Source: Pseudomonadota bacterium
GTDB lineage: Bacteria > Pseudomonadota > Gammaproteobacteria > Xanthomonadales > Xanthomonadaceae
DNA length: 64,000 nucleotides
NCBI GenBank assembly: GCA_018242485.1
Contig: JAFEBV010000017.1
Coordinates: 1-64,000, forward strand
Reading direction: 5' to 3'
The notes below the pieces were generated by a model. The model saw only the letters and a list, made by a program, of their open reading frames with translations. It searched no databases and was not told where the DNA came from. The translations under genes and the position numbers were made by a program. Numbering within the stretch: position 1 is the first letter of the stretch; every line of letters begins with the position of its first letter. Positions 13,366-42,705 of this stretch are shown here, piece by piece.

Positions 13366-13668
13366 AGGCATGCTGTAAGCTGATGTTTCGCATCAACCCA
13401 TTCAACACAAACAACATTCCCTCACCCGTCGCGCCTGCGGCGCGTCGGCCTCTCCCAGAGGGAGAGGCGATCTCTTCCTTCCCCCTCCGGGGGAAGGTGC
13501 CCGAAGGGCGGATGAGGGCGCCAAACTCGCTTGCGATGTAGCTTGCATTTCACACATTGCCCCAGCCCTCCTCGAACCCCTCCCCGACCCTCCCCTGCGC
13601 TTCGCGCAAGGGAGGGAGATTCAACGACGCATTTTCAGAATCCCGGCACAACTTACCAAGGAAACCCC
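13366..13668. repeat. REP-like repeats before ppa
   Basis: Gene-free stretch filled mostly by repeats. One copy of the dispersed palindromic repeat reads tail-to-head from 13419 (head CTCTCCCAGAGGGAGAG), and a second reads head-to-tail at 13478-13519 (head palindrome, then GGTGCCCGAAGGGCGGATGA). Here the heads face inward, unlike the other pairs. A different GC-rich element follows at 13560-13619. The ppa ribosome binding site (AAGGA) lies at about 13658. Confidence 0.8.
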
Positions 13669-28710: not shown

Positions 28711-28749
28711 GGCGGGAGTTGGGGAATGGGGTGGGGGGTGGGGATGTTC

Positions 28750-28886
28750 CCTTCTCCCTCCGGGAGAAGGTGCCCGTAGGGCGGATGAGGGAAAGATTTT
28801 CAGTTTGCTGCGGAAGGCAGGCATGTCGACGGATAGAGGCTTCTCTCATCCGGCGCTTCGCGCCACCTTCTCCCGGAGGGAGAAGG
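28750..28886. repeat. REP-like inverted pair between radC and coaBC
   Basis: Two copies of the dispersed repeat with outward heads (28750-28770 and 28866-28886, both CCTTCTCCC-type palindromes ending GGGAGAAGG) and inward GGATGAGGG tails, enclosing about 55 bp of unrelated sequence. Total length 137 bp. Confidence 0.88.
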
Positions 28887-28920
28887 ACAACGCCCGAGTC
28901 CCGCAGCGGCATCAGCTTGT

Positions 28921-34816: not shown

Positions 34817-37324
34817 TCATGGCAGGGTTTGCCCCGGCAACCAGTGCAAGGATGCCATGCGGTCGAGCAGTCCCGACACCTGCGCGCGCGCGGCTTTGGC
34901 GTGCACCGGCAGTACGAGGATGTCGCCGGGTTGTGCCCAATCCAGCAGGGAACGCGCACCGGGCTCCTCGTCGGTGGCGTAGTCGATGGCCGCAGCCGGT
35001 ACGCCATCGTGCACGAGGCCATCGCACAATATCGCGGCAACTTCACCCGGCGCGCGCCCGCGCATGAACGCGGGCATGTCCTTGAGCACCACGCGATCGG
35101 GACGAAAGTGCGCGGCCACGCGCGCGAGTTCGCGGATGTCCTCGTCGCTGCGGTCGCCGGCCTGCCCCAGCAGCAATCCGAAGCGGCCGCTGCGCTGTGC
35201 CACGCCGACCACCTCCAGCAGCCCGCGCAGGCCATCGGGGTTGTGCGCGTAATCCAGCCACACCTCGATGCCGGCCAGTGTCCAGCGTTGCAACCGGCCG
35301 GGGTTGTCCGCATGCGCGGTGCCGAAGCGCGCTAGTACGCCGGCGATGGTCGTGGCGGGAATGCCCAATGCGGTCGCGGCCAGCGCCGCGCCGAGGATGT
35401 TGGCGACGTTGTAGCGCGCCGCGCCGCCGATGGTGATCGGCATGTCGGTGACGATGCCCAGCTCCTGCGCAACGCCGCCGACGCGCAGCACGATGCGGCC
35501 TTCACGCACACCGCAAGTCGCGCCGCCCGCCGTGCGATGCGCGATCAGCAGCGGATGATCGTCGTCGAGCGCGAACCAGCCGATTGCGCAGTCCACATCG
35601 CCGGCATGCGCGCGCAAGGTGGCGTCGTCGGCATTGAGCACCAGCAGCCCGCCGCGATCGAGCACGCGCGCCACGGTCAGTTTCACCCGTGCCAGATCGT
35701 CCAGCGAGAACACGCCATAGCTGCCGTAGTGGTCGGCGCTGAGGTTGGTGACCACCGCCGCCTGCGCGCGTTGCATCGCCAGTCCGCGGCGCAGGATGCC
35801 GCCGCGCGCGGTTTCCAGAATCGCGCATTGCACCTCGGGTTGCCGCAGCACCTGCCGCGCGCCGGCGGGGCCGGAGTAGTCGCCCGAGGCGATCGGACGG
35901 CCATCGACGAACAGGCCATCCGTGCACGAATGGCCGGTACTCCAGCCGTGCGCGCGCGCCATCGCGGCGAGCAGGCGCACCGTGGTGGTCTTGCCGTTGG
36001 TGCCGGTGACCAGCGCGACCGGTACGTCGTGCAGCGACGACCAGCGGATGCGCGTTGGGTCGGGTAGTGGATCGAGTGGAAATGCGCGTGCGCCATGCCC
36101 TTCACCGAGGCTTATGTCGGTGTCGTCCATCAGCATCTCAACACCGTGATCGCACGCGGCCTGCGCCAGCGCCAACAGCTTCGGATTGGCCTCGCTGCGG
36201 GCCAGTTCGCGCAGGGTGGCGAAGGCATCCTCGTCATCCCACGCTGCCGGGTGGCCGGGGGCATGGGGTAACTGCCACGCAATGTTGTTCCTTCCCCCTC
36301 CGGGGGAAGGTGCCCGCAGGGCGGATGAGGGAGAGTCCTCCCGGATCGCAGTAACAGCCATGCTTTCCCTTCCCCCTCCGGGGGAAGGTGCCCGAAGGGC
36401 CTGCCCCAGACTTGATCCGGGGGCGGATGAGGGAGAGTCCTCCCGGATCGCAGTAGCAGACATGCTTTCCCTTCCCCCTCCGGGGGAAGGTGCCCGAAGG
36501 GCGGATGAGGGAAAGCTTTCACCAGTCGCCATGACAGGGGATTCCTCGGCCTGCACGGCTCTCCATATTTCCGCCAGCACATCCTCCGTCCGCAGCAGGA
36601 CATCATCGTTCCAGAACCGCAGCGTGCGAATTCCTTTAGAAGCGACGAACGCATTGCGTTGCTGGTCGCGCTCGATTTGCCCGGGATCACCGTGTTGCCC
36701 ACCATCGAGTTCCACCGCGAGCCGTGCCTGATGGCAGTAAAAGTCGAGAACATACGGGCCGATCGCATGTTGGCGACGAAACTTCGCGCCATCCAGTCGG
36801 CGGTCGCGTAGGAGGAACCACACAAGCTGCTCGGCGTCAGTGGCTTCGTGGCGCAGTTTGTGGATGAAGGCGCGGGTATCGTCGTCGAAAGGCAGCTTCT
36901 TGCGGGAGGGTTCGTGGGAGCGTGGATGGTCTTCCCTCATCCGCCCTGCGGGCACCTTCCCCCGGAGGGGGAAGGATAGAAGCGTTGCTTCCCACGCCCA
37001 CTCGTTGATTTCGGTGGCGGTGAACAGGCCATCCAGCGGAGCCGCGAGAGCCAACGTCGCTCCACCGTGATGGGCGCGTGCATGCAGCGGCGCGAAGGTA
37101 TCCCAACCCAGCGCGCTGCGCGCACGCTCCACGCGCTCGCACCAGCCATCCAGCAAGGCCGTAATGATGGATGCGTTCGCGGTGTCCAGTGGATCGCCGG
37201 GAAGATCGAGCGGCATCGATGCGGCGTTCGCTTCCAGCGCCGCACCCACCTGTGCGAAATACGGGTTCGCGCCGAGCAGGCGACGCGAGTCGGTGAAGGG
37301 GACATCGGGCACGTCGTCGGTCAA
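34817..37324 (-). CDS. Mur ligase-like cyanophycin synthetase partner with an inserted DUF559 cassette
   Basis: An 835-residue open frame made of three pieces. Residues 1-113 are a host N-terminal region (RRLLGANPYFAQVGAALEAN, then LFTATEINEWAWEA). Residues about 114-345 are a foreign cassette: repeat-derived peptide, a DUF559 domain (about 143-258) and low-complexity repeat translation. Residues about 358-835 resume the host protein, a Mur ligase-type ATP-dependent ligase with P-loop TGTNGKTTT and LDYAHNPDGLRGL. Unlike CphA it has no ATP-grasp domain. It lies downstream of cphA and probably helps in polyamide synthesis. Removing the cassette would leave about 600 residues in one frame. The insertion may inactivate, split or be tolerated by the enzyme. 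Confidence 0.8.
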   Translation of the reverse strand: MTDDVPDVPFTDSRRLLGANPYFAQVGAALEANAASMPLDLPGDPLDTANASIITALLDGWCERVERARSALGWDTFAPLHARAHHGGATLALAAPLDGLFTATEINEWAWEATLLSFPLRGKVPAGRMREDHPRSHEPSRKKLPFDDDTRAFIHKLRHEATDAEQLVWFLLRDRRLDGAKFRRQHAIGPYVLDFYCHQARLAVELDGGQHGDPGQIERDQQRNAFVASKGIRTLRFWNDDVLLRTEDVLAEIWRAVQAEESPVMATGESFPSSALRAPSPGGGRESMSATAIREDSPSSAPGSSLGQALRAPSPGGGRESMAVTAIREDSPSSALRAPSPGGGRNNIAWQLPHAPGHPAAWDDEDAFATLRELARSEANPKLLALAQAACDHGVEMLMDDTDISLGEGHGARAFPLDPLPDPTRIRWSSLHDVPVALVTGTNGKTTTVRLLAAMARAHGWSTGHSCTDGLFVDGRPIASGDYSGPAGARQVLRQPEVQCAILETARGGILRRGLAMQRAQAAVVTNLSADHYGSYGVFSLDDLARVKLTVARVLDRGGLLVLNADDATLRAHAGDVDCAIGWFALDDDHPLLIAHRTAGGATCGVREGRIVLRVGGVAQELGIVTDMPITIGGAARYNVANILGAALAATALGIPATTIAGVLARFGTAHADNPGRLQRWTLAGIEVWLDYAHNPDGLRGLLEVVGVAQRSGRFGLLLGQAGDRSDEDIRELARVAAHFRPDRVVLKDMPAFMRGRAPGEVAAILCDGLVHDGVPAAAIDYATDEEPGARSLLDWAQPGDILVLPVHAKAARAQVSGLLDRMASLHWLPGQTLP
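36290..36975 (-). mobile_element. Repeat-bounded DUF559 nuclease-like cassette
   Basis: About 0.69 kb bounded by outward palindromic heads (36290-36310 and 36955-36975) of the dispersed repeat, with tails facing inward. Inside, on the minus strand, is a DUF559 domain (LRHEATDAEQLVWFLLRD, FRRQHAIGPYVLDFYCH, LAVELDGGQHGD, RTLRFWNDDVL), related to very-short-patch-repair/restriction-like endonucleases. Its E-L-D-G-G core and preceding D-F-Y are the likely metal site. An internal ATG at 36940 could start a free-standing protein. Three tandem copies of the repeat lie at the low-coordinate end (36290-36520), the middle one with about 30 extra bases. No target-site duplication was seen. Confidence 0.65.
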
Positions 37325-37345
37325 GCAAGCGCCTCGGCAGGGATT

Positions 37346-37511
37346 CCCTCCCCTTCAAGGGGGTGAGGGCGAATGATTGCGAACCACCGGTTCGCATTCG
37401 GCCGAACGCCCAAGGGCCGGATGGGTCAGGGTGGGGATGGTATTGCTCGATCGTAACGTCGCGTTTGGCTGACACCCTCCCCATCCCATCCTTCCCCTTG
37501 AAGGGGAAGGA
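37346..37511. repeat. Inverted repeat pair between cphA and its partner
   Basis: A variant of the head palindrome (CCCTCCCCTTCAAGGGGG-type at 37346; CCTTCCCCTTGAAGGGGAAGG at 37491-37511) flanks about 125 bp. The interior holds the palindrome GCGAACCACCGGTTCGC (37379-37395), a relative of those in the blocks at 23213 and 50507. It fills the 256-bp gap between the two genes. Confidence 0.8.
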
Positions 37512-40665: not shown

Positions 40666-40965
40666 ATGGCAGCCCACACTTCGATGCTGCATGTCCGCGT
40701 CGACGAACACCTGAAATCGCAAGCCACCGAGGCGCTGGCCCAGATCGGTCTGACTGTCTCCGATGCGGTGCGTATCCTGCTGACGCGCGTCATCAGCGAA
40801 GGCGGTTTGCCCGCCGGCCTCACCGTCGATCCGCAGATCCACGATGCCTGGTTCCGCGCCAAGGTGCAGGAAGCTCTGGCCGATACGCGGCCGGCGATCC
40901 CGCATCGGCAAGCCATGAGCGAAGCGCAAGCGCTGATCGACAGGAAACGCCGTGCCCGTTCTTGA
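40666..40965 (+). CDS. relB: RelB/DinJ family antitoxin
   Basis: A 99-residue antitoxin with an N-terminal ribbon-helix-helix DNA-binding fold (MLHVRVDEHLKSQATEALAQ, then GLTVSDAVRILLTRVISEG) and a C-terminal toxin-binding helix rich in charged residues. Overlaps the downstream toxin by 14 nt. A palindromic operator precedes it. Two related sequences, one intact and one truncated, lie 0.6-1.8 kb downstream, so the family has duplicated in this island. Confidence 0.88.
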   Translation: MAAHTSMLHVRVDEHLKSQATEALAQIGLTVSDAVRILLTRVISEGGLPAGLTVDPQIHDAWFRAKVQEALADTRPAIPHRQAMSEAQALIDRKRRARS

Positions 40966-41239
40966 ATGGCGGGATGCGGCGCGCCTCGACCTGCTGGCGA
41001 TCGTCGATTACATCTCCGACGACAACCCCGACGCCGCACAGCGACTCAAGGATGACATCGAGGCGAAGGTATCGGCGTTGCCGGAACACCCCCGGCTGTA
41101 TCGAGCGGGACGCGTGCCCGGCACGCGGGAAATGGTGGTGCGCTCGAACTATGCCGTCGTCTATGCGGAAGATGCCTGCGCGGTGATCGTCCTGCGCGTG
41201 TTGCACGCGGCCCGGCAATGGCCACCGACGGCGGCGTGA
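40952..41239 (+). CDS. relE: RelE/ParE family toxin
   Basis: A 95-residue toxin. LEWRDAARLDLLAIVDYISD, HPRLYRAGRVPGTREMVV and VLRVLHAARQW are the family landmarks; the middle and end resemble the ParE/RelE branch that includes YafQ-like and plasmid-type toxins, so the target (mRNA at the ribosome or gyrase) is not certain. It starts with GTG inside the antitoxin gene, giving coupled translation. No frameshift is seen. Confidence 0.87.
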   Translation: MPVLEWRDAARLDLLAIVDYISDDNPDAAQRLKDDIEAKVSALPEHPRLYRAGRVPGTREMVVRSNYAVVYAEDACAVIVLRVLHAARQWPPTAA

Positions 41240-41245
41240 TCTTTT

Positions 41246-41503
41246 TCAGATGCCCAGATCCTTGAACAGCGCCTCTGCGCTGTCGAACCGCTTGCCCTTG
41301 CCTTCGTCCAGTTCCTTCATCGCCTTGCGCGTGGTCGCGTTGGGCACCCACATCTCGAACGGCAGCCCGCGCTCGTGCACCACCTTGGTCAGGCCGATGC
41401 GCACGAAATCGGAGACGGTCAGGCCCATCGCGGCCAGGATTTCGGTGGCCTCGTCCTTCAGGGTTTCGTCGATGCGTGCGCGGACGAATGCGTTGGCAGC
41501 CAT
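41246..41503 (-). CDS. Orphan RelB/DinJ-like antitoxin
   Basis: An 85-residue ribbon-helix-helix protein (MAANAFVRARIDETLKDEAT, then EILAAMGLTVSDFVRIGLTK) with a C-terminal segment (MWVPNATTRKAMKELDEGKG) resembling DinJ. No toxin gene follows: the frame ends 7 bp from the convergent relE stop. It may be a decayed locus, an antidote to a toxin elsewhere, or a repressor. A near-palindrome at 41533-41552 upstream is a possible own operator. Its first 29 codons are duplicated at 42331-42418. Confidence 0.82.
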   Translation of the reverse strand: MAANAFVRARIDETLKDEATEILAAMGLTVSDFVRIGLTKVVHERGLPFEMWVPNATTRKAMKELDEGKGKRFDSAEALFKDLGI

Positions 41504-41532
41504 GGCTTGCGCTCCGATCAATTGGCACACAA

Positions 41533-41552
41533 TGTAGCTCATTGGAGTTACA
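41533..41552 (-). promoter_or_regulatory. Near-palindromic operator of the orphan antitoxin
   Basis: TGTAGCTC / GAGTTACA arms with one mismatch and a 4-nt centre, 30 bp upstream of the start codon at 41503. Similar in size and position to the other TA operators in this island. Confidence 0.45.
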
Positions 41553-41623
41553 AGCTCAAAGTGCGGAGGAGGGATCCCGTCGATCCTGTGATCTACCATG
41601 CACCGGAAGGCGTCTCCCCAGAC

Positions 41624-41654
41624 TTGTTATGTATTGACATTTGGAGATACAATC
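41624..41654 (+). promoter_or_regulatory. Promoter/operator of brnT-brnA
   Basis: TTGTTA (41624-41629) and TACAAT (41649-41654) could be -35 and -10 boxes, though the 19-bp spacing is long. Arms TGTAT / ATACA (41630-41634 and 41647-41651) flank a 12-nt centre. The 11-mer GAGATACAATC is shared exactly with the relB-relE promoter. Confidence 0.45.
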
Positions 41655-41676
41655 GAGCCCGAGACGAGAACCCTGC

Positions 41677-41955
41677 ATGGAACTGGAATTCGAGTGGGAT
41701 GAGGACAAAGCTGCCACGAATCTAGCCAAGCACGGCGTCACCTTCCACACGGCGAGCCGTGTGTTTTTCGATCTTGAGCGCACCGACCGCCACGACGGCC
41801 GCGAGGACTACGGTGAAGACCGCTTCGTGACGGTGGGTCTTGTGGGAACGACGGAATTGATCGTGGCCTACACCATGCGTACCGATATCATCCGCATCAT
41901 TTCTGCCCGAAAGGCCGAACCTCATGAACAACGCGAATACTGGAAAAACCGTTAG
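41677..41955 (+). CDS. brnT: BrnT family toxin
   Basis: A 92-residue RelE-like ribonuclease toxin of the BrnT family. Landmarks are the N-terminal FEWDEDKAATNLAKHGVTFH, the GEDRFVTVGLV strand, and the C-terminal IIRIISARKAEPHEQREYW, which carries the basic active-site residues. In BrnTA modules the toxin comes first, as here. The ATG at 41677 is chosen for the family start; an upstream ATG at 41641 falls inside the promoter. Overlaps brnA by 32 nt. Confidence 0.93.
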   Translation: MELEFEWDEDKAATNLAKHGVTFHTASRVFFDLERTDRHDGREDYGEDRFVTVGLVGTTELIVAYTMRTDIIRIISARKAEPHEQREYWKNR

Positions 41956-42235
41956 CTTCACCCTCAACCAAGCCACCCCGTTGAGCGCCGAAGAGCTGGC
42001 GCAGCTTGCCGCACTGAAGCATCGGAAGATCGACACCAGCGACATACCTTCGAGTCCCGCCAGCGCCGTGTGGACGCGCCCCGGCATCCCCTTCCTGACC
42101 GAGAACAAACGGCAAATCTCGCTGCGCATCGACGCCGACGTGCTCGCCTTTTTCCGTGAATCCGGAAAGCGCTACCAGACGCGGATCAACAGTGTCCTGC
42201 GCGAGTACATGCGCGCGCATGCGCCGAAGACGTGA
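41924..42235 (+). CDS. brnA: BrnA family antitoxin
   Basis: A 103-residue antitoxin and autorepressor that wraps BrnT. The C-terminal ribbon-helix-helix domain is clear (KRQISLRIDADVLAFFRESG, RYQTRINSVLREYMRAH), and the N-terminal part supplies the toxin-neutralising region. It starts inside brnT (32-nt overlap). Length is typical and no defect is seen. Confidence 0.92.
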   Translation: MNNANTGKTVSFTLNQATPLSAEELAQLAALKHRKIDTSDIPSSPASAVWTRPGIPFLTENKRQISLRIDADVLAFFRESGKRYQTRINSVLREYMRAHAPKT

Positions 42236-42705
42236 CCGGCGGCGAGGGCTCATGACCGACTCCATCGGGAACCGATGTTCGAGCGCCCAGGCTGGACAAG
42301 CGGCCGCCCGTAAAGGTGGCACAGGAAACACGGTCAGGCCCATCGCGGCCAGGATTTCAGTGGCCTGATCCTTCAGGTTTTCGTCGATGCGTGCGCGGAC
42401 GAATGCGTTGGCGGCCATGGCTTGCGCTCCGCTCAGTTGGCACACAATGTGGCGCGTTGGAGCTGCATAGGCAATCAGTCTGATCCTGAACTTGCCCGAA
42501 TCGAGGGCGTTACGGCGACATGTTTTCGATGACCGTGATCACTGCGACGATGAGTCCGATGACGGAAGTAACCTTGGAACGATCCTTCTGCACCAACCCC
42601 ACGATCCCGAAGTCGCGGCTGCTCTCGCAACCGCGACTCAGACGAAGCAGGTTGGCATGCGCTGGCGGTCTGGTTGGGATGGATGGATTGCTGGTGTCGC
42701 CCCCG
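42236..42705. other. Gene-poor stretch with a relB remnant
   Basis: Apart from the truncated relB-like copy at 42331-42418 (with homologous upstream sequence to about 42445), no gene is supported. The remainder has no family resemblance on either strand. Confidence 0.55.
42331..42418 (-). pseudogene. Truncated 5' copy of the orphan relB-like antitoxin
   Basis: The first 29 codons of the gene at 41246-41503 recur here almost unchanged (MAANAFVRARIDENLKDQAT, then EILAAMGLTV), including about 27 bp of upstream sequence. Homology stops at 42331, where the open frame continues into unrelated sequence. The two copies bracket the brnT-brnA module in the same orientation. Confidence 0.85.

Follow-up and report, generated by a model that had tools for sequence, protein, structure and literature searches.

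In many bacteria the non-coding DNA is full of short palindromic repeats, most of which have no known mobilising enzyme. RAYT is a long-lived enzyme gene that stays at a fixed place, and repeat numbers fall when the enzyme is lost (PMC8049555). CGTC REPs, on the other side, have been reported without a dedicated enzyme (PMC3733652). Among nucleases, the DUF559/Vsr-like VsrA of Caulobacter (CCNA_02930) has an activity that triggers the SOS response in cells without the methyltransferase ScmA (PMC12907096, 2026). Within the open-access literature, none of fourteen papers that mention DUF559 links it to palindromic repeats in a relevant sense, and we found no paper on RIME1, or on REP together with 'endonuclease domain-containing protein'. 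Here we describe a DUF559 nuclease inserted in frame in a Mur ligase gene. The insert is probably an old member of a family, similar to REPIN/RAYT systems, in which a DUF559 gene lies between inverted REP-like repeats; the family occurs widely and has apparently escaped description.

The window, that is, the whole 64,000-nucleotide stretch analysed, contains the following features.

34817..37324, minus strand: 835-aa ORF, a CphA2-like Mur ligase with an internal DUF559 nuclease (ORF and Pfam)
36977..37324, minus strand: N-terminal host part, ending just past the conserved motif TATEINEWAW (plus EATLL) (alignment with G001, G002, G003, G004 and G027)
36289..36976, minus strand: inserted element of 688 bp, in frame, from head palindrome to head palindrome
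36932..36975, minus strand: 5' arm, with outer head palindrome CCTTCCCCCTCCGGGGGAAGG and inner tail TGCCCGCAGGGCGGATGAGGGAA, translated as SFPLRGKVPAGRMRE
36545..36880, minus strand: DUF559 nuclease domain with a predicted Vsr/EDxHD homing-endonuclease-like fold (Pfam 2e-32; AF2 model)
36470..36513, plus strand: innermost 3' arm copy (copy 1), with 98% complementarity to the 5' arm
36368..36437, plus strand: 3' arm copy 2, with a nested palindrome
36290..36335, plus strand: 3' arm copy 3 (outermost), the edge of the element
34817..36288, minus strand: C-terminal part of the host, with the middle and C-terminal domains of the Mur ligase (Pfam)
28745..28888, no strand assigned: non-autonomous mini-element of the same repeat type, an inverted head-out doublet with ~50 bp replacing the nuclease, upstream of a radC-like gene
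13475..13518, plus strand: solitary intergenic copy of the same repeat

The host ORF starts with TTG and runs for 835 codons with zero internal stops. Its predicted product contains, in order, DUF559 (aa 151-257, E 2e-32), Mur_ligase_M and Mur_ligase_C; cyanophycin synthetase is the nearest named family for the C-terminal part of the ligase, and the gene upstream encodes a full CphA-like protein. The NEWAW motif, after which the element begins, is present in all ligase orthologues read. The first-pass annotation had proposed a segment of about 0.69 kb that interrupts the Mur ligase gene without closing its frame, is edged by inverted repeats with their palindromic heads outward, and encodes a nuclease and no transposase; each of these points was borne out by the ORF, by both ends of the insert and by Pfam, in which DUF559 is the sole domain encoded by the element. 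Neither Pfam nor NCBIfam matched a Hint/splicing domain, the hallmark of inteins, in the 835-aa protein. Alignment with cassette-less orthologues fixed the bounds of the insert, but no target-site duplication is visible against the empty alleles, the flanks of which have diverged.

The repeat (CCTTCCCCCTCCGGGGGAAGGTGCCCGnAGGGCGGATGAGGG) occurs once 5' of the nuclease (36975-36932, minus strand) and three times 3' of it (from 36290, 36368 and 36470, plus strand). The arms are inverted, with their G-rich tails inward, and the best pair spans 44 nt at 98-100%. The earlier picture of simple inverted edges thus holds for orientation but not for the 3' side, where three copies form an array that includes a tandem duplication (102-nt spacing). 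The middle 3' copy also harbours a small palindrome of another kind, CCCCAGACTTGATCCGGGG, at ~36402-36422. The hairpin of the 5' arm folds at -13.8 kcal/mol (z -2.1), and heads fold somewhat better than shuffles. The repeat tail has 5 matches in the window against 0.00 expected, and a pattern search for dispersed repeats counted 62 copies in the 2.8-Mb own genome (G000), with 0 for the reversed pattern. The GTAG tetranucleotide is absent from the arms of the insert, and the CGTC tag from the repeats. Elsewhere in the window, a head-out doublet of another repeat type (CCCTTCAAGGGG...) lies between the two cph-like genes (37340-37510) and resembles the flanks of the DUF559 gene at the accC site, and several small neighbouring ORFs at 40666-42445 resemble, by eye, RelB/ParE-type toxin-antitoxin genes.

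The nuclease scored 111.7 bits against the DUF559 profile (PF04480; cut-off 20.6), and residues E17, D46, E57, D59, H63 and D72 are invariant in 34 sequences. Its AlphaFold2 model (pLDDT 90) matched a DUF559 structure (3hrl, Z 16.4), the homing endonuclease I-Bth0305I (3r3p, Z 11.4; the sequence match is weak) and Vsr (1cw0, Z 10.1); TnsA (Z 6.3) and Holliday-junction resolvases were weaker matches. Weak profile hits to enterotoxin B chains were put down to chance and rejected. Judged by its family, cutting of branched DNA, hairpins or mismatches is plausible for this nuclease. In comparable pairs dN/dS was 0.06-0.10 for the nuclease and 0.16-0.34 for the host; these values point to purifying selection on the nuclease but, with dS saturated, are indicative only.

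Next, we examined DUF559 genes in general. Each locus received the score of its best inverted pair, aligned without gaps and lying no more than 350 bp from the domain, and counted as flanked at a score of at least 16. The first-pass annotation had suggested a search of related genomes for DUF559 genes between inverted repeats, and 47 of the 69 loci of the order proved to be of this kind, compared with 3 of 1164 controls placed with identical geometry. Across bacteria, 48 of 80 named DUF559 loci were flanked (controls, 2/869), in many phyla and at 35-69% GC; this set includes Acinetobacter (35-41% GC), Rickettsiales, Prevotellaceae, Chloroflexi and Nitrospirota. In the usual flank, CCCTCTCCC-loop-GGGAGAGGG precedes a tail, for example TTAGGGTGAGGG. 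Repeat doublets were also found around repeats in other genomes. About one third of DUF559 loci have no clear inverted arms, partly through decay and partly, perhaps, through real absence. All five DUF559 genes of the own genome lie between inverted repeats of differing sequence types. DUF559 genes without these particular repeats, which had been named beforehand as evidence against a mobile unit, do exist as far as the exact repeat type is concerned, but most of them have types of their own.

Could such flanks arise by chance, G+C-rich DNA being prone to give palindromes and long open frames? The host genome is indeed G+C-rich, and long spurious ORFs are common. This explanation nevertheless has next to no chance of being correct: same-geometry controls reached 0.2-0.3%, reversed-pattern controls of the repeat counts were 0 throughout (repeat types T1, T3 and T4, and the 20-species genus described below), and Acinetobacter gave the same result at 35-41% GC. 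We regard it as ruled out by these controls.

We noted several further loci of this kind. In Sinorhizobium (L220, L221), a DUF559 gene lies between full repeat doublets with tails outward, unlike the head-out form in the window. In the sucD-nadE gap, the clade of the DUF559 gene differs from genus to genus (L083, L072, L129, L262, L263), which suggests a recurrent or replaced site. In two species of one genus (L085, G000 C41; L078, G004), a DUF559 element is fused in frame to the TilS N-terminus, downstream of kbl. Two bacteria that are not related to each other (L116, G039; L222, a Synechocystis plasmid) have DUF559 inside or next to DUF1156-type methyltransferase genes. In E. coli K-12, a CCCTCGCCCC-GGGGAGAGGGTTAGGGTGAGGGG repeat lies between the DUF559 gene ycjD and fabI (L224; NC_000913.3 1351039-1351760). 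The ycjD region is held by 3363 of 5426 E. coli genomes and is missing or replaced in ~2000; ycjD offers no clean empty site, because an RND-efflux operon occupies the position in genomes without it. Candidate empty sites on plasmids of Sinorhizobium and Azospirillum were set aside too, as flanks were not common to the compared plasmids or the element was fixed.

The type of nuclease and the type of repeat vary together. Where arms were clear (47 loci), comparison of nuclease distance with the similarity of the arms, taken between different genomes, gave a Spearman coefficient of -0.37, with 0 of 2000 permutations as extreme. The rare repeat T3 occurs in 4 of 60 genomes (G035, G019, G011, G020). 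Three of them have a nuclease of the T3 clade next to a copy of T3; in the other, G011, which is 72% complete, the T3 nuclease was not detected. A further nuclease of this clade, that of G027, has one degenerate arm, and dispersed copies are absent. T4 is abundant in 8 of 60 genomes, including all 6 with a T4-flanked nuclease (genus-level p ~5e-4), and T5 forms many inverted doublets in one genus. T1, the type in the window, is also common in genomes without the window-type nuclease; it was uninformative about cognate dispersal, since T1-like repeats seem to be common to several diverged clades of DUF559.

These data bear on the possibility that a RAYT or another transposase mobilises the repeats, which then pile up near small expendable intergenic genes, with DUF559 as a bystander. 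REP-like repeats are dense in these genomes, and GTAG REPs with RAYTs are known in related bacteria (PMC3733652). We nonetheless consider a bystander role unlikely, since the repeats lack the GTAG tag, the arms match each other and track nuclease phylogeny across genera, the rare types are mostly limited to genomes with the matching nuclease, and the pattern extends to low-GC genomes. Moreover, of the 14 solitary repeats that remained once DUF559 loci were removed, none was paired with an inverted copy at the corresponding distance.

A genus of the family with 20 species allowed repeat number to be compared with nuclease presence. Sixteen species carry a DUF559 element at one orthologous intergenic site. 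The DUF559-less species have 0, 0, 7 and 113 cognate repeats, the species with a nuclease in two fragments has 25, and the other 15 have 47-150 (exact one-sided Mann-Whitney p 0.011, uncorrected for phylogeny; the two repeat-free species have the smallest genomes). In G080, the DUF559-less species with 113 repeats, the site shows a precise scar, in which a single head palindrome (AGCCCCTCTCCCATCGGGAGAGGGGCT) stands between the flanks and the other head, the nuclease and both tails are gone. This scar could be the product of recombination between two heads or a target that predates insertion; recent loss is favoured because the genome is repeat-rich. In the genus of G035 we found no empty site, and one congener has a GxxExxY-type gene instead. 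In G061, the glyoxalase-accC site, which holds a DUF559 element in three congeners, and which is orthologous to the site in L090, contains a frameshifted GxxExxY-type (PD-(D/E)XK) gene with its own flanking sequence (L232, ~1040-1510; family named by eye). Such sites may be contested between DUF559 elements and a second family of nucleases with repeats.

We then considered the age of the insert in the window. Its nuclease belongs to a set of 13 closest relatives (window copy included) among 395 genomes of the family, all in open frames of 752-1467 aa; of the further DUF559 matches tallied, 1 of 82 lies in a frame of at least 700 aa. The nearest group sits in the same ligase gene at the same position, directly after NEWAW. 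Two sister groups occupy one fixed position each in DNA methyltransferase-like genes; the sister nucleases at L310, L311, L313, L315 and L312 lie in frame in genes that, by eye, are MmeI-like or other DNA methyltransferase-like genes. The insert is present in 9 of 94 ligase orthologues, in five genera, and partial arms without a nuclease remain as scars in three (G002, G251, G407); the remaining orthologues read are clean, with a short loop of variable length. Over 36 pairs, the identity of the nucleases (mean 0.63) goes along with that of their hosts (mean 0.65), at a Spearman coefficient of 0.83. Judged from this distribution and correlation, the insert is ancient and mainly vertically inherited. 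The earlier idea of a mobile nuclease cassette therefore needs qualifying: repeat flanking is general and nuclease and repeat types co-vary, but an insert common to nine orthologues in five genera is no fresh cassette. Orthologues in distant genera, which would speak against mobility if they all carried the domain, are divided, as some do and most do not.

The same data bear on a homing element proper, in which the nuclease cuts the uninterrupted host allele and is copied in by recombination, the in-gene clade then acting like an intein or intron endonuclease without splicing. The fixed site by a conserved motif in nine orthologues, the single sites of the sister groups in methyltransferase genes, the predicted fold shared with I-Bth0305I, and an incongruence of host and nuclease between G372 and G182 (a possible exchange) are in its favour. 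The correlated divergence and near-equal means, however, fit vertical descent, and homing to one site would leave high-copy repeats at many unrelated sites unexplained; we judge this account distinctly unlikely. A functional fusion, in which DUF559 is now a working domain of the Mur ligase, would agree with a frame kept in nine lineages and a nuclease about as conserved as the ligase. It is very improbable, given that 85 of 94 orthologues lack DUF559 there, three of them with scars, that the loop varies in length and that the domain is bounded by translated mobile repeats.

We return to a REPIN/RAYT-like family, in the best-supported view one with an enzyme of the Vsr/homing type of nucleases. 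For each type, a single nuclease gene would persist at a fixed place, mainly by vertical inheritance, and would maintain and spread its cognate repeat as solitary copies and as head-out doublets (nuclease-less mini-elements). The nuclease may recognise the hairpin head and the G-rich tail of its own repeat when these are unpaired or extruded, and then cut the repeat; repair by recombination or templated copying would duplicate or convert repeats. Because each head is a palindrome, the inverted arms can act as direct repeats too, and recombination between them would remove the unit and leave one palindrome. Insertions that keep the frame in a tolerant loop would survive, and long retention could have led to the in-frame state in the window, where the nuclease is probably translated, either within the 835-aa ligase or as an internal domain that a surface loop after NEWAW tolerates. 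That the nuclease causes repeat spread is inferred from correlation among sequences. Several points weigh against this explanation: no transposition or duplication event was seen and no target-site duplication found, about a third of DUF559 loci lack clear inverted arms, G080 keeps its 113 repeats without a nuclease, G011 has T3 repeats with no T3 nuclease detected, T1 is common in genomes that lack the window-type nuclease, and the copy-number comparisons are uncorrected for phylogeny. As for a broader proposal, we see about even chances that a large, phylum-spanning class of REP-like repeats has its dedicated mobilising enzymes in the DUF559 nucleases, which would copy repeats by palindrome cleavage and repair rather than transposase chemistry, with one in-gene, in-frame, homing-like branch in ligase and DNA-methyltransferase genes; GxxExxY and further PD-(D/E)XK families may do likewise with their own repeats.

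If this is true, DUF559, a very common protein family of 'unknown' function, gains a role as the enzyme of one large class of repeats, and the spread of DNA by a nuclease alone becomes testable. Existing genomes in which the nuclease is lost, broken or present are natural experiments, and ycjD of E. coli K-12 could serve for one in the laboratory. In-frame units that last inside housekeeping-type genes illustrate how selfish DNA can enter proteins.

Several known systems share features with the insert. The VsrA report is silent on flanking repeats and mobility (PMC12907096). The ShiLan insertion in a phage methylase gene is likewise in frame, with a hidden nuclease and no internal stop; its nuclease, however, is of the HNH type, its host gene is a phage gene, and the abstract does not mention REP-like repeats (PMC11855218). 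I-Bth0305I and Vsr-like (EDxHD) homing endonucleases resemble the window clade in fold, in their weak sequence match and in a conserved site within a gene, and homing elements resemble the insert in occupying the same site in orthologues with sporadic presence. Unlike I-Bth0305I, the insert has no intron or intein and is flanked by dispersed palindromic repeats; its homing is putative. Rickettsia palindromic elements, like the insert, are palindromic repeats in frame in protein genes and are translated (PMC10969869), as seen here from the open frame; those elements are ~150 bp and carry no gene, whereas the repeats described here carry or track a nuclease. REP/REPIN repeats and their RAYTs (REPtrons) share with DUF559 elements high-copy palindromic repeats, doublets and an enzyme gene between inverted repeats, and in both the enzyme is long vertically inherited and repeats are more numerous where it is present (PMC8049555; PMC3733652). 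RAYTs are HUH/Y1 tyrosine transposases, whereas the enzyme of DUF559 elements is a PD-(D/E)XK/Vsr-type nuclease, and DUF559 elements form many divergent nuclease-repeat types across phyla. With an enzyme that has no relation to RAYT and with no GTAG tag, DUF559 elements fall outside the RAYT family.
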